Assembly: GCA_030429455.1 (NCBI GenBank)
Contig: JAUIFC010000011.1
Span: 1 to 43,722 of the forward strand
Length of the DNA: 43,722 bases
Reading direction: 5' to 3'
Origin: Bacteroidia bacterium
Lineage (GTDB): Bacteria; Bacteroidota; Bacteroidia; Flavobacteriales; Flavobacteriaceae
Positions 6,989 to 43,722 of this stretch are shown one piece after another. The notes beneath the pieces are model-generated. The model was not told the DNA's origin. It searched no databases and saw only the letters and a list, made by a program, of their open reading frames with translations. Both the position numbers and the translations under genes were made by a program. Numbering within the stretch: position 1 is the first letter of the stretch; each line of letters starts with the position of its first letter.

Positions 6989-8302
6989 CTAATCTAACTG
7001 ACCTGCTGGCACATACACTTTAAACCTTTCAGGAATTACGCCATTAAAGATTATTCTATTTTCTTGTTGATAATACAAACTAACAAGAGCTCCAGCAAGA
7101 ACGGCATCGTTTTTTGATATATCGGTATCATCTATACCGTCAGTGCATCGTTCTAAAATAGCAAGTGCATCTCTCATACTTTGTGACTTTACGTTTTTTA
7201 AAAACGTAAGTTGCTTATCTCGTGACAAACTACCTAGATTTATTTTGGCCTGCGCAAAATTTTCTTCCATTCTTTGTGATTCAGACGGGTTTTTTGACTG
7301 CGAACCACGCGGAATCACTGCGCTTATTGGGTTAATGGTGGCAAACATATAGCCCGTCATGAATGCTCCGGTTTCCGCTCCATCTTGCGGGCCACGATAT
7401 ACCTCTGCCAGCTCTTTTGTAATCATGTTGCGTACGCGCACATCGTCGAAACCATTGGGCTTTTCTAAGTCAACGGCCAATACATCGTCATACTGGAACG
7501 CTTTACTTAGCTCTTTTTTGGCTTCTTTTAGTGCAGCATCCAATGCTTCAGGGGATAGGCCTGTATCGTTCTTTTCAACTTTAAGGTAATTATTGTATGC
7601 TTCATTCATCCATTGGTTGGCTTTTAGTGCTGCGTGCTCCACAATGGCAACGCTTACCCCTCCGCTTTCTATGGCTCCGCTGAGAATTTCTTTTTGTCTC
7701 TCAGCACTAATAATCATATCTTTTGCTTTATCAGGGTTGGTTTCATCTTCGAAACGGCCGACTGCAACCATGCCGCTGAAAAGGCTTGTGAATTCTGGGC
7801 GACGCGACGAATCTATCGCGATTTCACGCGCTGCCGCATTTTCTTCTGCGTTGGCAATATCGCGCAAAAATTCTTCCAATGTTTCTTGTTGAACGGGCGG
7901 TTGATCTTCAACTGTTGTCGCTTGCTTGGTAAATGCTTCTAGGGTGGGGCTAACGCCTGTTAATAGAAATTGTTCGCTAATCTTTGCATTAAAACATAAA
8001 TGATCTGAGGTCTCAATCAAGATATCATTGCTGCTAATGGAATAATCTAAATCTTTAAAGTTTAATAACTCTGGAAAATGAAATAATAATGTGCTTTCAC
8101 CCTCATTTAACAAACTAAAATATTCTAGTCTATTGTAGTCTGCTTTTTTATTGGATGTATGTAATACTTCTTCGTTTGGTACTATAAATAGGGTTTGTTT
8201 TCCATCACACCACATACCATTTTTATCAGGATTCGCATCAAACTCTAAAAAATTCAAATCTGAAATAAAGATGATAAACATGGCCGTAATAAAGGATTTC
8301 AT
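6989..8302 (-). CDS. Exported protein of unknown function, unusual base composition
   Basis: A 437-residue protein with an N-terminal signal-like segment (MKSFITAMFIIFISDLNFLEF). Residues ~22-125 are beta-rich and encoded by AT-rich DNA. From about 130 onward the protein is alpha-helical and rich in Ala/Glu/Lys (for example NAEENAAAREIAID, EALDAALKEAKKELSKA). No family or catalytic motif is recognised. The DNA for the middle (about 7,270-7,900) is clearly richer in G+C than the neighbours, suggesting acquisition or domain fusion. It stands alone, divergent from thrS, with no obvious functional link to either neighbour. Confidence 0.6.
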   Translation of the reverse strand: MKSFITAMFIIFISDLNFLEFDANPDKNGMWCDGKQTLFIVPNEEVLHTSNKKADYNRLEYFSLLNEGESTLLFHFPELLNFKDLDYSISSNDILIETSDHLCFNAKISEQFLLTGVSPTLEAFTKQATTVEDQPPVQQETLEEFLRDIANAEENAAAREIAIDSSRRPEFTSLFSGMVAVGRFEDETNPDKAKDMIISAERQKEILSGAIESGGVSVAIVEHAALKANQWMNEAYNNYLKVEKNDTGLSPEALDAALKEAKKELSKAFQYDDVLAVDLEKPNGFDDVRVRNMITKELAEVYRGPQDGAETGAFMTGYMFATINPISAVIPRGSQSKNPSESQRMEENFAQAKINLGSLSRDKQLTFLKNVKSQSMRDALAILERCTDGIDDTDISKNDAVLAGALVSLYYQQENRIIFNGVIPERFKVYVPAGQLD

Positions 8303-29793: not shown

Positions 29794-32574
29794 ATGCAAA
29801 CTTATACCGACTACCTTAACGAAATTGAAGACAGAAAATTAATGGGATTACATCCCAAACCAATTGACAGTGCAGAATTGTTATCTGAAATTATATCTAA
29901 TATAAAAGACACCGATAATAAACAAAGAAGTCAATCTTTAGATTTCTTTATTTACAATACCCTTCCTGGCACAACGCCTGCTGCTGGGGCAAAAGCACAA
30001 TTTTTAAAAGAAATAATTTTAGGAGAGTCCGAAGTTGAAGAAATATCAAGAGCCTTTGCTTTTGAACAATTATCGCACATGAAAGGCGGACCATCTGTAA
30101 AAGTGCTTTTAGACCTTGCTTTGGGATCAGAGGAGTCTATTGCTCAAGATGCTGCTAAGGTCCTAAAAACACAAGTATTTCTTTACGAAGCGGATACTGA
30201 GCGCTTAGAGTCGGCAATGAAATCAGGGCATGCTATTGCCAAATCTATTATCGAAAGCTATGCCCAAGCTGAATTTTTCACAAAACTTCCAGAAGTCCAA
30301 GAAAAAATTGATGTTGTCACCTACATCGCTGGAGTTGGCGATATTTCAACAGATTTACTATCGCCAGGAGCAGATGCACATTCTAGATCCGATAGAGAGC
30401 TTCATGGACAATGTATTTTTGAGCACAACAAAGACATGCAAAATGAAGTTCTTGCGCTTAAAGAACAACATCCTGACAAAAGAATCATGCTGATTGCAGA
30501 AAAAGGCACCATGGGTGTTGGCTCTTCTAGAATGTCTGGCGTAAACAATGTGGCGCTATGGACAGGAATTCCATCTAGTCCTTACGTTCCTTTTATCAAT
30601 ATTGCGCCTGTGATTGCAGGAACCAATGGTATAGCCCCTATTTTCTTAACCACTGTTGGTGTAACTGGCGGAATAGGAATCGATTTAAAAAACTGGGTTC
30701 AAAAGAAAGACGAAAACGGGAATACAATTTTAGACAAAGACGGAGAACCAGTTTTAGAAGAAGTTTATTCTGTAAGAACTGGTACTGTCCTCACCATCAA
30801 TACCAAAGAGAAAAAACTATACAACGGAAAATACGAGTTAAAGGATATTTCCACCGCACTTACCCCACAGAAAATGGAATTTATAAGAGCTGGTGGATCT
30901 TATGCAGTGGTCTTTGGTAAAAAGCTACAAACCTTTGCCTGTAAAGCTTTAGGAATCGATGTGCCGCAAGTCTATGCACCTTCAAAAGAAATCACCATGG
31001 AAGGACAAGGCTTAACAGCAGTCGAAAAGATATTTAATAAAAATGCTGTTGGATCAACGCCTGGAGTTACTTTACACTCAGGTTCAAATGTTCGTGTGGA
31101 AGTCAACATTGTCGGCTCACAAGACACGACTGGCTTGATGACCTCTCAAGAATTAGAAATGATGGCAGCAACTATAATATCGCCAATTGTAGATGCAGGT
31201 TACCAGTCTGGTTGTCATACAGCTTCTGTATGGGACGATAAGTCTAAAGCCAATATCCCAAGGTTGATGAAGTTTATGAATGACTTTGGATTAATAACTG
31301 GTAGAGACCCAAAAGGACAATACCACGCCATGACCGATGTTATTCACAAAGTTTTGAATGATATCACAGTAGACGACTGGGATGTGATTATTGGTGGTGA
31401 CTCACATACAAGAATGTCTAAGGGTGTCGCCTTTGGAGCAGACTCTGGAACAGTGGCTTTAGCATTGGCAACAGGCGAAGCTACCATGCCAATTCCAGAA
31501 TCGGTAAAAGTAACTTTTAAAGGAAACATGAGAAGCTTCATGGACTTCCGTGATGTGGTACACGCCACACAGCAACAAATGCTGAAACAATATGGCGGGG
31601 AAAATGTTTTCCAAGGCCGTGTGATTGAAGTCCACATCGGAACATTAACTTCCGACCAAGCATTTACCTTCACCGATTGGACAGCAGAAATGAAAGCGAA
31701 AGCATCGATTTGTATTTCCGAGGAAGAAACACTTATTGAATCTTTAGAAATTGCAAGAGATCGCATCCAAATCATGATTGACAAAGGCATGGATAACGAC
31801 AAGCAGGTGTTACAAGGTTTGGTTGACAAAGCCAATACACGAATTCAAGAACTTCTAACGGGTACAAGACCTGCCTTAAAACCAGATGCAAATGCCAAAT
31901 ACTATGCAGAAGTCGTTATCGACCTTGATGAAATTGCAGAACCAATGATTGCAGATCCAGATGTAAATAATGAGGATGTTTCTAAACGCTATACACACGA
32001 TACCATTCGTCCCCTATCCTACTATGGTGGTACTAAAAAAGTTGATTTAGGATTTGTAGGGTCTTGCATGGTTCACAAAGGGGACATGAAGATTTTGGCT
32101 CAAATGCTAAAGAATATAGAAGAACAACAAGGAAAGGTTGAATTTAAAGCGCCTTTAGTTGTGGCGCCTCCAACCTATAACATCGTTGACGAATTAAAGG
32201 CGGAAGGCGATTGGGAAGTTTTACAAAAATATTCTGGATTCGAATTTGACGATAGTGCTCCTAAAGGTCTAGCAAGAACTAAATATGAAAACTTATTGTA
32301 CTTAGAACGCCCAGGCTGCAATTTATGCATGGGTAATCAAGAAAAAGCTGAACCAGGCGATACAGTAATGGCTACTTCAACTCGATTATTCCAAGGAAGA
32401 GTGGTCAAAGACTCAGGAGAAAAGAAAGGAGAGTCCTTGTTATCCTCTACTCCTGTTGTCGTTTTATCAACCGTTTTAGGTCGAACACCAACAATGGAAG
32501 AATACGAAGCTGCAGTAAATGGCATTGTACTCACTAAGTTTAAACCATCACAAAAACAGCTGGTAGAAGCATAA
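29794..32574 (+). CDS. acnB: Aconitate hydratase B (2-methylisocitrate dehydratase)
   Basis: A 926-residue AcnB-type enzyme that converts citrate to isocitrate in the TCA cycle and often handles 2-methylcitrate too. The N-terminal HEAT-like domain (about 1-160) is followed by the swivel domain (TDLLSPGADAHSRSDRELHG, KGTMGVGSSRMSGVNN) and the catalytic domains. Cluster ligands are seen in GSCMVHKGD and GCNLCMGNQ. GGDSHTRMSKGVAFGADSGT is the substrate-binding signature. It is followed by a terminator and then by a second, unrelated-class aconitase. Confidence 0.96.
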   Translation: MQTYTDYLNEIEDRKLMGLHPKPIDSAELLSEIISNIKDTDNKQRSQSLDFFIYNTLPGTTPAAGAKAQFLKEIILGESEVEEISRAFAFEQLSHMKGGPSVKVLLDLALGSEESIAQDAAKVLKTQVFLYEADTERLESAMKSGHAIAKSIIESYAQAEFFTKLPEVQEKIDVVTYIAGVGDISTDLLSPGADAHSRSDRELHGQCIFEHNKDMQNEVLALKEQHPDKRIMLIAEKGTMGVGSSRMSGVNNVALWTGIPSSPYVPFINIAPVIAGTNGIAPIFLTTVGVTGGIGIDLKNWVQKKDENGNTILDKDGEPVLEEVYSVRTGTVLTINTKEKKLYNGKYELKDISTALTPQKMEFIRAGGSYAVVFGKKLQTFACKALGIDVPQVYAPSKEITMEGQGLTAVEKIFNKNAVGSTPGVTLHSGSNVRVEVNIVGSQDTTGLMTSQELEMMAATIISPIVDAGYQSGCHTASVWDDKSKANIPRLMKFMNDFGLITGRDPKGQYHAMTDVIHKVLNDITVDDWDVIIGGDSHTRMSKGVAFGADSGTVALALATGEATMPIPESVKVTFKGNMRSFMDFRDVVHATQQQMLKQYGGENVFQGRVIEVHIGTLTSDQAFTFTDWTAEMKAKASICISEEETLIESLEIARDRIQIMIDKGMDNDKQVLQGLVDKANTRIQELLTGTRPALKPDANAKYYAEVVIDLDEIAEPMIADPDVNNEDVSKRYTHDTIRPLSYYGGTKKVDLGFVGSCMVHKGDMKILAQMLKNIEEQQGKVEFKAPLVVAPPTYNIVDELKAEGDWEVLQKYSGFEFDDSAPKGLARTKYENLLYLERPGCNLCMGNQEKAEPGDTVMATSTRLFQGRVVKDSGEKKGESLLSSTPVVVLSTVLGRTPTMEEYEAAVNGIVLTKFKPSQKQLVEA

Positions 32575-32766: not shown

Positions 32767-35037
32767 ATGGCATTCGATATTGATATGATTAAAGCTGTCT
32801 ACAACAAGATGGCACAACGCGTTGATAAAGCAAGAGAAGTTACTGGAAAACCACTTACTTTATCAGAAAAAATCTTGTATTCTCACCTCACGGAAGGTGA
32901 ACCGAAATCAATGTACGAAAGAGGGAAAGATTATGTTGATTTTGATCCAGATCGAATAGCTTGTCAAGATGCTACGGCACAAATGGCACTATTACAATTT
33001 ATGCAAGCTGGAAAAGAAAAAGTTGCAGTACCTACCACAGTACACTGTGATCATCTTATTCAAGCAAAAAATGGTGCCGAAGTAGATTTAAAACACGCCA
33101 ACAACACAAGCAGTGAAGTATTTAACTTTTTAGAATCTGTTTCGAACAAATATGGCATTGGCTTTTGGAAACCAGGAGCAGGAATTATTCACCAAGTAGT
33201 GTTAGAAAATTATGCTTTTCCTGGCGGTATGATGATAGGTACCGATTCCCACACGGTAAATGCTGGCGGATTAGGGATGGTTGCAATTGGCGTCGGTGGT
33301 GCAGATGCTGTCGATGTTATGGCTGGAATGCCTTGGGAACTTAAATTTCCAAAATTAATCGGAGTAAGACTTACTGGAAAACTATCGGGATGGACAGCTC
33401 CCAAAGATGTAATTTTAAAAGTTGCCGAAATCTTAACTGTAAAAGGTGGCACAGGAGCAATTGTTGAATATTTTGGACCTGGTGCAACATCAATGTCCTG
33501 TACTGGAAAAGGAACCATTTGTAATATGGGCGCAGAAATTGGTGCCACAACTTCTACTTTTGGCTATGACGAATCTATGGAACGCTATCTAAGAGCAACA
33601 GATAGAGCGGATGTTGCAGATGCAGCAAACGAAATAAAGTCTTACCTCACAGCCGACCCTGAAGTTTACACCAATCCAGAGGATTATTTTGATCAAGTTA
33701 TAGAAATTAACTTGTCTGAATTAGGACCATTATTAAACGGTCCATTCACTCCAGATCTTTCGACCAATGTCGGTAAAGAGATGAATAATAAAGCAAAAGA
33801 AAACGACTGGCCTATGCAAGTGGAATGGGGATTAATTGGCTCGTGTACAAACTCTTCTTACGAAGATTTATCTAGGGCATCTTCTATTGCTCAACAAGCC
33901 TTAGACAAGGGACTCAAAACAAAAGCCGAATTTGGAATTAACCCTGGCTCAGAACAAGTAAGATATACAGCTGAAAGAGATGGTATTTTAGAAGTTTTTG
34001 AAAAACTAGACGCCAAGATATTTACAAATGCTTGTGGTCCTTGCATCGGTCAATGGGCAAGATATAATGATCCTAAAAATGCTCCAAAGAATAGCATTGT
34101 GCACTCATTTAATAGAAACTTTGCAAAACGAGCGGATGGCAATCCAAATACCCATGCTTTTGTCGCCTCACCAGAAATAACTGCTGCAATAGCTATCGCT
34201 GGACGTCTCGATTTTAATCCAATAACCGATAGCTTGATTAACGAAAATGGAGAAGAAGTTATGTTGGACGAACCAACAGGATGGGAACTTCCTCCAAAAG
34301 GGTTTGAGGTAAAAGAAAATGGTTATTTAGAACCTGTTGCCGATGGCAGTGCAATTTCTGTTGATGTCAGCCCTACTTCAGAAAGGCTGCAGTTGCTTAC
34401 ACCATTTGTACCTATTGGAGACAACATAAAAGGCGCAAAACTTCTTATTAAAGCCTTTGGCAAATGTACAACCGATCATATTTCGATGGCTGGACCATGG
34501 CTAAGGTATAGAGGTCATCTTGACAATATTGCAAATAATACCTTGATTGGTGCTGTAAACGCCTATAATAAGCAAACAAATTTTGTAAAAAATCAACTTA
34601 CAGGTAAATATGGTGGTGTTCCTGATACCCAAAGAGATTACAAGAAAAATGGAGTGTATTCTGTTGTGGTTGGAGACCATAACTATGGCGAAGGTTCTTC
34701 AAGAGAACATGCCGCTATGCAACCTAGACATTTAGGCGTTGCAGCTGTCATCGTAAAGTCTTTTGCCAGAATTCACGAAACGAATCTTAAAAAGCAAGGC
34801 ATGTTGGCTCTGACATTTGCAAATGAGAATGACTATGATTTAATTCAAGAAGATGATACCTTTAACTTTCTAGATTTAGATAAATTCTCAGAAGGTAATC
34901 CGCTTTCCATAGAAGTTGTTCATTCCGATGAAAGTAAAGATACTATCATTGTGAATCATACTTATAATGCACCGCAGATCGAATGGTTTAAAGAAGGCTC
35001 TGCCTTAAACCTAATTAAAAAGCAAAACAACGAATAA
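32767..35037 (+). CDS. acnA: Aconitate hydratase, mitochondrial type
   Basis: A 756-residue aconitase of the eukaryotic mitochondrial class. Signatures: [20 protein letters not shown], the first cluster Cys in [13 protein letters not shown], the other two in [10 protein letters not shown], and the swivel domain motif [18 protein letters not shown]. All three iron-sulfur ligands are present, so it should be active in the TCA cycle. It has a separate transcription start region after the acnB terminator and carries its own terminator. The gene symbol is by function; the class differs from the E. coli AcnA subfamily. Confidence 0.96.
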
Positions 35038-41023: not shown

Positions 41024-42736
41024 TTAAAAACAATATTTGTTTTCTTCTTTAACTTTTTCTGCGATAATATCTCGTAATTCCACTACATTAGGATAGTTCG
41101 CATATTTTGTAAAACGCTTAAGTCCCATAAGCATCATTTTTTGCTCATCGCCATCAGAAAATGAAATAATACCTTCTAAACCATTTTTCTTAACAATCTC
41201 AATGGCATTAAACAAATAAAGTTTAGCCATGGCTATTTGTTCCTTTTGAGCCTCTTCGCCAAAACGCTTGGCATTTTTCTCTGCTCTAAGAATTGCAGAT
41301 TCTGCCATGTATATTTCAATTAAAATATTGGAAGCGTTAAGAAGTATTTGCTGATGTGATTCTAAATCTGTTCCATATTTTTTTGCTGCCGAACCGGCGA
41401 CCATCAAAAATACTTTTTTCATTTTAGCTATCATTTCTTTTTCTTCAGCAAACAATTCAGAGTAATCTGGCACATCAAACGAAGGAATACCTAACAGCTC
41501 GTCTGCTACTGCCGTTGCAGGACCTAAAAAGTCGATATGACCTTTCATTGCCTTTTTCACCAACATCCCTACAGACAACATTCTGTTTATTTCGTTTGTC
41601 CCTTCGTAAATTCTAGCGATACGTGCATCTCTCCAAGCCGCTTCCATTGGGGTATCTTTTGAAAAACCCATTCCGCCAAAAATCTGAATCCCTTCGTCAG
41701 AACAGTTTTGAATATCTTCGGAAACTGCAACTTTAAGAATTGAGCATTCAATCGCAAACTCTTCCACACCTTTTAGTTCTGCTTCTTGATGAGAATTACC
41801 AGAAGCTACTCGAATTGCAATTCGATCTTCAATGTCTTTTGCAGCTCTGTAGCATGCTGCTTCTCCTACGTAGGCGCTTGTTGCCATTTCCGCCAATTTT
41901 TGTTTTATAGCACCAAAATCTGAAATAGGCGTATTAAATTGTTTACGCTCATTTGCATATTGCACGCCAGTCGTTGTTACCCTTTTCTGAGAATCCAAGC
42001 AAGCCGCTGCTAATTTTATACGTCCAACGTTTAAAGCGTTCATGGCAATTTTAAAACCTTCGCCTCTACCAGCCAACATATTTTCTACAGGGACTAAAGT
42101 GTCGCTAAAAAACACTTGTCTTGTAGAACTGGCATGAATTCCTAATTTATGTTCTTCTTCACCTAAAGTGATGCCATTTTCTGGATTATTTTCTACTATA
42201 AAACCGGTAATGTTTTTATCATTTTCAATTCTGGCAAACACAATAAATAAACTGCAAAACCCAGCATTTGATATCCACATTTTCTGCCCATTAATTTTGT
42301 AATGAGTACCATCTTCTGTTAATTGAGCTGTAGTTTTCCCAGAATTAGCGTCGCTACCAGCACCTGGTTCTGTTAAACAATAAGCACCAAACCATTCCCC
42401 GGTAGCCAATTTAGGCACATATTTTTGCTTTTGTTCTTCGGTTCCATACAATGTTATTGGCATAGTTCCAATGCCCGTATGAGCACCAAAAGCCGTACTA
42501 AATGAACCTGACCCACTTGACATGTATTCGCAAACCAACATCGTGGAAACAAAGCCCATGCCTAAACCGCCCATGTATTCCGATGCGGTGATGACTGTGA
42601 CACCATCTGTGGTCACGGGTTCGCTGTAAACAGCTTCAGGTTTAGCCACATCTAGCAGTTTATCCATCATGCCAAACGCTGCTTCTTGATTAGGTACTGC
42701 TTCTGAGATAATTTTGTTGTAATTATTGTCTTCCAT
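41024..42736 (-). CDS. Acyl-CoA dehydrogenase with a foreign GerW-like N-terminus (chimeric reading frame)
   Basis: A 570-residue frame. From about residue 56 (GGLGMGFVSTML) to the end it is a normal flavobacterial acyl-CoA dehydrogenase: CLTEPGAGSDANSGKT, GQKMWISNAG, STRQVFF, ARIYEGTNEINRML and the C-terminal extension ending ENKYCF. The usual ~90 N-terminal residues are missing. Instead, residues 1-53 (for example AKPEAVYSEPVTTDGVTVIT) resemble the start of GerW/YtfJ-family proteins from other phyla, preceded by a Shine-Dalgarno site. The join falls at a short glycine-rich stretch (about 42,560-42,590) that both parents could share. Likely an assembly chimera, less likely a true fusion. The intact enzyme would catalyse the first step of fatty-acid beta-oxidation. 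Confidence 0.85.
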   Translation of the reverse strand: MEDNNYNKIISEAVPNQEAAFGMMDKLLDVAKPEAVYSEPVTTDGVTVITASEYMGGLGMGFVSTMLVCEYMSSGSGSFSTAFGAHTGIGTMPITLYGTEEQKQKYVPKLATGEWFGAYCLTEPGAGSDANSGKTTAQLTEDGTHYKINGQKMWISNAGFCSLFIVFARIENDKNITGFIVENNPENGITLGEEEHKLGIHASSTRQVFFSDTLVPVENMLAGRGEGFKIAMNALNVGRIKLAAACLDSQKRVTTTGVQYANERKQFNTPISDFGAIKQKLAEMATSAYVGEAACYRAAKDIEDRIAIRVASGNSHQEAELKGVEEFAIECSILKVAVSEDIQNCSDEGIQIFGGMGFSKDTPMEAAWRDARIARIYEGTNEINRMLSVGMLVKKAMKGHIDFLGPATAVADELLGIPSFDVPDYSELFAEEKEMIAKMKKVFLMVAGSAAKKYGTDLESHQQILLNASNILIEIYMAESAILRAEKNAKRFGEEAQKEQIAMAKLYLFNAIEIVKKNGLEGIISFSDGDEQKMMLMGLKRFTKYANYPNVVELRDIIAEKVKEENKYCF

Positions 42737-42742
42737 TTGTTT

Positions 42743-42747
42743 CCTCC
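42743..42747 (-). promoter_or_regulatory. Shine-Dalgarno site before the GerW-like start
   Basis: GGAGG lies 6 nt before the ATG at 42736 on the minus strand. Such sites are rare in Bacteroidota and absent elsewhere in this window, so it marks the right end as foreign. Confidence 0.65.
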
Positions 42748-42754
42748 AAAAATT

Positions 42755-42776
42755 GGGCGAGCCAACGGCATCGCCC
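42755..42776. repeat. Intergenic GC-rich inverted repeat
   Basis: GGGCGA and TCGCCC flank a 10-nt loop, preceded on the minus strand by GTAGGG. Such GTAGGGGCGA-type units are common intergenic repeats in some non-Bacteroidota genomes (general knowledge). It sits between the NADAR gene and the GerW-like start. Confidence 0.5.
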
Positions 42777-42781
42777 CTACA

Positions 42782-43348
42782 TCATGTTTGTTCTAGTTGG
42801 GTGCGGGCGGCCATGAGGGCGAAGCCGAGTAGATTGAGTCCTTGCCATTTTTCTGGGTTGGTAGCCTGTGGATCATCTTCGGCGAGACCAATGCCCCAAA
42901 TTTTGTCGCGGGGGCTGGCTTCGACCAGAATGCGTTTTTTGCTGTTGAGCAGAAAGGTTTTCAGGGCTTCATTTTGCCCGAATTTGGCGATGTTGCCACG
43001 GACAACGATGTCGAAACGATGGGTTTTCCAATTTTGTTCGTCGAAGTTTTGCACCAAACGGCCGTATTGCTTCGCCGCACCGGGATGGGGAGCACTCAAG
43101 ATTTTCTCTAAAGCATCAGCGTCGTTAAACAGGCGTGCTTTTTCGGCCATCATGTAATGTTCGGCGGTGAGGTAGGTGATGCCATCGATGATGAATGGCG
43201 AATCCCACCATTGACTAAAACAGCTTTTGCTTACTTGCCCATCAGGATGGGGCTGATGTCCCCAAAAGAAAATGTATTTCAGTTTTTGCCCTTTTCTAAA
43301 GGCGGTGATTAATGTCTCTTTATCGAGAATCTGGTTAGTATCGTTCAT
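42782..43348 (-). CDS. NADAR family protein (YbiA-like)
   Basis: A 188-residue protein. Typical NADAR features: FFWGHQPHPDGQVSKSCFSQ, TYLTAEHYMMAEKARLF, GNIAKFGQNEALKTFLL, LVEASPRDKIWGIGLAEDD and WQGLNLLGFALM. YbiA-type enzymes cleave N-glycosidic bonds in early riboflavin intermediates, and other members remove ADP-ribose from nucleic acids. The gene is much richer in G+C than the left 42 kb. It lies 12 nt after the upstream 88-residue gene and precedes the GerW-like start on the same strand. Confidence 0.92.
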   Translation of the reverse strand: MNDTNQILDKETLITAFRKGQKLKYIFFWGHQPHPDGQVSKSCFSQWWDSPFIIDGITYLTAEHYMMAEKARLFNDADALEKILSAPHPGAAKQYGRLVQNFDEQNWKTHRFDIVVRGNIAKFGQNEALKTFLLNSKKRILVEASPRDKIWGIGLAEDDPQATNPEKWQGLNLLGFALMAARTQLEQT

Positions 43349-43360
43349 TTAGATGATTGG

Positions 43361-43627
43361 TCAGCGTATTTTTCGTAGGAAAAACAGCAGCAGATTGAAG
43401 AGAATGGAGATCGCGGCAAAGGTGATCAGGGCGCTGCGGGTGACGTCGGGGATGGGATGGTGCTTGATACGGCCGTTTTCCTCCACCGTCACCGCAGATG
43501 GCCGATTCCAAACAAAGCCGCCAAAGGGTGTTTGCATGGTGAAGGCCTGGGCTTGTGGGGTGATGGTTAGATCATCTACTTGCACGGGAACGCTTGATTG
43601 GGTTTCCCAACTGATTAAATCTTGCAT
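43361..43627 (-). CDS. Small C-tail membrane protein, unknown function
   Basis: An 88-residue protein with a polar, beta-rich N-terminal region (WETQSSVPVQVDDLTITP, PFGGFVWNRPSAVTVEENG) and one C-terminal transmembrane helix (SALITFAAISILFNLLLFF) ending in Arg/Lys. No family recognised. A strong Shine-Dalgarno AGGAGG lies upstream (43632-43637). G+C-rich, probably in one operon with the NADAR gene. Confidence 0.65.
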   Translation of the reverse strand: MQDLISWETQSSVPVQVDDLTITPQAQAFTMQTPFGGFVWNRPSAVTVEENGRIKHHPIPDVTRSALITFAAISILFNLLLFFLRKIR

Positions 43628-43631
43628 AGTT

Positions 43632-43637
43632 CCTCCT
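43632..43637 (-). promoter_or_regulatory. Shine-Dalgarno site before the 88-residue gene
   Basis: AGGAGG lies 4 nt before the ATG at 43627 on the minus strand, a consensus ribosome-binding site unlike the flavobacterial genes to the left. Confidence 0.7.
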
Positions 43638-43653
43638 GATTTAAAATTATGAA

Positions 43654-43722
43654 TTATGAAGGATAAGGGATGAAAAGTGTTATGTGATCATCTCTACGCT
43701 CATAATCTGGGTAATCTTTGAT
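43654..43722 (-). CDS. Possible C-terminal end of a gene running off the right edge
   Basis: One minus-strand frame is open from the right edge for 22 codons (IKDYPDYERRDDHITLFIPY region) before a TAA. It could be the tail of an upstream gene in the same foreign segment, but the stretch is too short to be sure. Confidence 0.3.
   Translation of the reverse strand: MKDYPDYERRDDHITLFIPYPS

Follow-up and report, generated by a model that had tools for sequence, protein, structure and literature searches.

Contigs that unite fragments of different sources are termed chimeric in one account of metagenome-assembled genomes (PMC8201837), and misassemblies are described there as relatively rare compared with mis-binning. 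False paths through k-mer graphs are described in a second source (PMC8172020). Here we analyzed a window of 43,722 nucleotides that is the entire contig C310 of a Flavobacteriaceae assembly (GCA_030429455.1; 310 contigs, 86.5% complete), the fragmentation of which suggests a metagenome bin. A 570-residue frame on its minus strand (41024-42736) is open throughout, and by homology its two halves derive from different phyla. We conclude with high confidence that this frame is an assembly chimera of Flavobacteriales and Chloroflexota sequence and not a gene, and the join fits the descriptions of metagenomic chimeric contigs in these two sources (PMC8201837, PMC8172020).

The assembly measures 4.13 Mb, whereas the 24 listed genomes of the same genus range from 1.3 to 3.3 Mb, and a bin of this excess size may include more foreign or mixed DNA than its contamination estimate of 1.86% implies. 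Two further features of C310 were recorded in passing. Tandem aconitase genes of different types are found at 29794-32574 and 32767-35037, one with aconitase B domains and the other with an Aconitase/Aconitase_C layout, and a 437-residue frame that has no Pfam match at E ≤ 1e-5 (6989-8302) lies where the G+C content is elevated (0.428 at 7001-8000).

The dehydrogenase portion of the frame

Residues 57-570 scored 616 bits against the FadE-type acyl-CoA dehydrogenase (ACAD) model NF058590 (cut-off 600), covering model positions 78-585 of 586, and the FadE-type model spanned residues 50-569 when the full frame was scanned with Pfam and NCBIfam. The ACAD middle and C-terminal domains were present (PF02770, E = 3e-24; PF00441, E = 1.1e-37; PF21263, E = 1.5e-33). 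A complete N-terminal domain was absent, with PF02771 aligned only from model position 43 of 113. Because this Pfam match begins at residue 44 of the full frame, residues 44-56 weakly resemble both parents. On the basis of NF058590 and the same-genus orthologues, the flavobacterial FadE-type portion was assigned to positions 41024-42549 of the minus strand and is certain from residue 63.

Orthologues were sought in the assembly itself and in 39 relatives, of which 24 belong to the same genus and the other 15 to the same order. Full-length copies were found in 28 of the relatives (20/24 and 8/15, respectively), and these matched the frame locally only from query residues 45-51 onward. When fetched and aligned, all 28 (592-610 residues) possessed an ordinary ACAD N-terminus that leads into the aligned region by way of motifs like PEEYGGLGMDF, in agreement with the claim of the initial annotation that the start of the frame fits no ACAD N-terminus. 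The ACAD portion was 72-79% identical to the 20 same-genus orthologues. The initial annotation had also described a truncated dehydrogenase; an N-terminal part is indeed missing, although the alignment with same-genus orthologues gives ∼85 absent residues and not the ∼90 that had been estimated. A more distant paralogue hit (G031:C3; 35% identity, one stop inside) extended back to residue 25. The other 11 relatives carried a partial (G018) or split (G010) copy, had only more distant paralogues, or gave no match (G039). The split orthologue, from a single-contig genome of the same genus (G010:C1:2030312-2031878), gave two matches in different stretches; one of them contains two TAG codons, possibly a sequencing error or a sign of a decayed gene.

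A GerW/YtfJ-like N-terminus of Chloroflexota type

Positions 42572-42736 of the minus strand were identified by homology search as the beginning (55 codons) of a GerW/YtfJ-like gene from Chloroflexota that the join has truncated. Residues 4-62 matched GerW-like proteins in 53 of the 396 genomes sampled from the class of a Chloroflexota bin (G040), the best match in this sample showing 56% identity (E = 5.7e-16), and the stretch had no match at E ≤ 0.01 in any of the 39 relatives. These results uphold the earlier assignment of approximately residues 1-55 to a GerW/YtfJ-like protein. Matches to flavobacterial ACADs for one half and to Chloroflexota GerW-like proteins for the other place the two in different phyla. 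In a smaller set of nine genomes picked from matches to the NADAR protein described below, a 64-residue N-terminal piece matched one, the Chloroflexi bin Go_Eff_bin_125; two other Chloroflexi genomes among the nine showed no match to this piece (1/3 Chloroflexi).

Past the end of the shared stretch, full-length homologues carry a Gly-rich run followed by a conserved C-terminal part. The frame lacks both of these GerW segments, its sequence being that of an ACAD already by residue 63. Two of three full-length Chloroflexota homologues passed the PF09579 (Spore_YtfJ) cut-off, and the third scored 20.8 against the required 25. Pieces of 56 and 64 residues from the window reached no Pfam family, nor did a 52-residue piece of a genuine homologue; the GerW name for the fragment, which itself is too short for PF09579, is therefore taken from the full-length homologues. 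A search of the own assembly found only the piece in the window and no second GerW-like piece, and therefore no second Chloroflexota contig serves as a witness in the bin. A PF09579 family search of the same genome returned nothing and missed even the window's own piece. A literature query for GerW/YtfJ together with Chloroflexi yielded no relevant title among the matches listed, "GerW" probably having hit author names.

Position of the join

GerW-type sequence extends up to M55, and ACAD-type sequence is certain from V63. The zone that holds the false join comprises 22 bases of the minus strand (42550-42571), which encode GGLGMGF plus one base and could belong to either parent gene. At the join position, GGLGYGF is found in the GerW-like proteins of two loci (L107 and L111), and GGLGMGF or GGLGMDF is found in some ACADs. 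From these motifs, a Gly-rich overlap of at most ∼22 bases would have been common to the two parent genes. An exact shared stretch of ∼22 bases would be enough to lead an assembler with a starting k-mer length of 21 astray, and a short overlap in the assembler probably caused the join.

The foreign tail of the contig

C310 ends 1.15 kb past the join, and this tail (42572-43722) was recognized as foreign and Chloroflexota-like by its G+C content and tetranucleotide divergence. Its G+C content is 47.3% compared with 34.9% for the rest of the contig, where windows of equal length reach at most 41.7%. By gene, the ACAD part has a value of 0.376, the GerW part (a short stretch) 0.430, the NADAR gene 0.483, and a gene encoding an 88-residue protein 0.524. 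The tetranucleotide divergence between the tail and the rest was 0.210, compared with a maximum of 0.109 elsewhere (windows every 100 bases), and the tail was nearer to 20 Chloroflexota loci (0.123) than to nine flavobacterial loci (0.209).

The 88-residue protein (43361-43627, minus strand) belongs to no Pfam family, and its homologue lies directly upstream of Chloroflexota GerW-like genes. We fetched the 20 best-scoring of 55 GerW-like matches as a sample of Chloroflexota loci; in all 20, an 88-residue homologue was located upstream of the GerW-like gene in the same orientation, the aligned parts lying 2-251 bases apart. None of the 39 relatives gave a match to this protein. The gene order of the window thus equals that of Chloroflexota (88-residue protein, then GerW-like) except for the intervening NADAR gene, which was found between the two in 0/20 of the Chloroflexota loci. 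Within Chloroflexota (the 20 fetched loci, L093-L112), the 88-residue protein without a Pfam family and the GerW/YtfJ-like gene form a conserved two-gene unit. By eye, a similarity is seen between the end of the 88-residue protein (RPxAV...DVTR followed by a hydrophobic stretch) and the C-terminal region of GerW-like proteins, as if the two might be related.

The NADAR-domain protein (188 residues; 42782-43348, minus strand; PF08719, E = 1.6e-54) is encoded on the foreign side of the join. Its best match (63%) was in a Chloroflexi bin, and among 80 of 407 loci many other phyla followed at 54-63%, with Cyanobacteria, Tenacibaculum, and Listeria among the near-equal matches. Of 14 Chloroflexota genomes tested, this protein was found only in that same Chloroflexi bin. 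With many phyla nearly as close and a single positive Chloroflexota genome, the NADAR protein was not diagnostic and was dropped as a taxonomic marker. The GerW piece and the 88-residue gene were also sought beside NADAR genes elsewhere (91 loci); only the window's own two loci were recovered, along with two further matches to the 88-residue query at chance level.

The probable start of the dehydrogenase on contig C76

When residues 1-88 of an ACAD from a relative were used to query the own genome (E ≤ 10), four matches were obtained, three of them within open paralogue frames of 388-405 residues. The sole cut match was 60% identical and lies at C76:28302-28475, stopping 4 bases short of the end of this 28,479-base contig. 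The best own-genome match to a relative's thiolase was on the same contig (26625-27803, 75% identical). The genes of C76 run in the order MarR, 3-hydroxyacyl-CoA dehydrogenase/enoyl-CoA hydratase (FadB-type), a 183-residue frame, thiolase, a 23S rRNA-intervening-sequence-type protein, and ACAD residues 1-63. The gene between thiolase and dehydrogenase on C76 (L141 7852-8211) is of the PF05635 type; in L003, the thiolase and dehydrogenase genes are 12 bases apart.

The ACAD halves on C76 and C310 are complementary and do not overlap. In relatives, ∼23 residues separate the last residue on C76 from the Gly-Gly-Leu-Gly where C310 begins to fit. This number was read by eye from the alignment; an automatic count gave 13, an underestimate that arose because residues 54-56 of the window frame were aligned 8 columns ahead of their proper place. 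The start of the real gene therefore most likely lies on C76, the gene being split over the two contigs with ∼70 bases left unassembled.

The N-terminus on C76 was 57-65% identical to those of same-genus orthologues. Pairs of relatives with 75-80% identity across the remainder of the enzyme had N-termini that were 81-86% identical (4 pairs); in less similar pairs the corresponding values were 71% (one pair at 70-75%) and 39-70% (125 pairs at 60-70%). In view of this lower than expected conservation, C76 and C310 may come from different strains, or the N-terminus may evolve fast in this lineage. The C76 thiolase was 74-76% identical to those of five relatives, whose own pairs were 86-95% identical; this comparison used five of nine loci, one of the five being shortened. 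Because this divergence resembles that of the C310 dehydrogenase, the C76 lineage is, as judged from these sequences, about as divergent as that of C310. The two contigs probably derive from one chromosome.

Discussion

The difference in phylum between the halves, the order of the partner genes, the step in composition, and the complementary N-terminus on C76 together mark the frame as, almost certainly, an assembly chimera. The initial annotation had suspected a false join at the Gly-rich stretch, and this reading is supported by the different phyla, the Chloroflexota partner gene, the composition step, and the C76 end. We envisage that a flavobacterial contig broke off within the ACAD gene and that its broken end was joined, by way of the short Gly-rich stretch (42550-42571), to a Chloroflexota fragment that carries the 88-residue gene, the NADAR gene, and the first part of a GerW/YtfJ-like gene. 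By chance, the reading frame survived the join. The true ACAD start is most likely the one on C76, where genes for MarR, a FadB-type protein, and thiolase precede it as in an ordinary beta-oxidation operon.

A real fusion would have arisen by horizontal transfer, with a Chloroflexota fragment inserted or recombined at a short match to yield an expressed GerW-ACAD hybrid and a broken operon. In favor of such a fusion, the reading frame continues through the join and stays open over its whole length, but C310 ends only 1.15 kb beyond, the tail retains the gene order and composition of Chloroflexota, neither the GerW stretch nor the 88-residue gene occurs in any of the 39 relatives, and the dehydrogenase start lies at the cut end of another contig, just as an assembly break predicts; we regard a fusion as very improbable. 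Still less credible is a natural ACAD family with a different N-terminal domain whose likeness to GerW is due to chance. The fragment alone reaches no Pfam model, yet the same is true of the 52-residue piece of a genuine homologue, and chance likeness is at odds with the E value of 5.7e-16 to Chloroflexota homologues, with the partner gene upstream in every fetched locus (20/20), and with the ordinary N-terminus of every orthologue (28/28).

Within the chimera reading itself, and overlapping with it in probability, the ACAD half of C310 and contig C76 might stem from two flavobacteria mixed in the bin. The low conservation of the C76 N-terminus and the size of the assembly relative to the 24 same-genus genomes speak for such a mixture; against it, the genome yielded a single cut ACAD N-terminus, the halves are complementary without overlap, and the divergence of the C76 thiolase resembles that of the C310 dehydrogenase. 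We consider this variant unlikely, though less so than either of the alternatives above. The points that count against the assembly chimera, among them the low conservation of the C76 N-terminus and the lack of a second GerW piece, do not rescue a fusion.

Once the assembly chimera is recognized, a false "new fusion" and a false "broken beta-oxidation gene" can be struck from this genome, and the frame cannot be taken as a sign that the beta-oxidation pathway is broken. The last 1.15 kb of C310, including the NADAR gene, should not be ascribed to the flavobacterium. In a fragmented assembly, an open, in-frame junction does not by itself establish that a fusion is real.

Compared with known systems, residues 57-570 correspond to a FadE-type ACAD (NF058590; Pfam ACAD N, M, and C domains), the operon neighbors of which are found on C76, whereas ∼85 N-terminal residues are missing on C310 and replaced by unrelated sequence. 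Residues 4-62 agree with Chloroflexota GerW/YtfJ proteins (PF09579) up to the Gly-rich run, but the window piece is cut before the Gly-rich and C-terminal parts of the homologues. As in the chimeric contigs of metagenome-assembled genomes described in PMC8201837, pieces of different sources are present in one contig; C310 differs in that an open frame was kept across the join.
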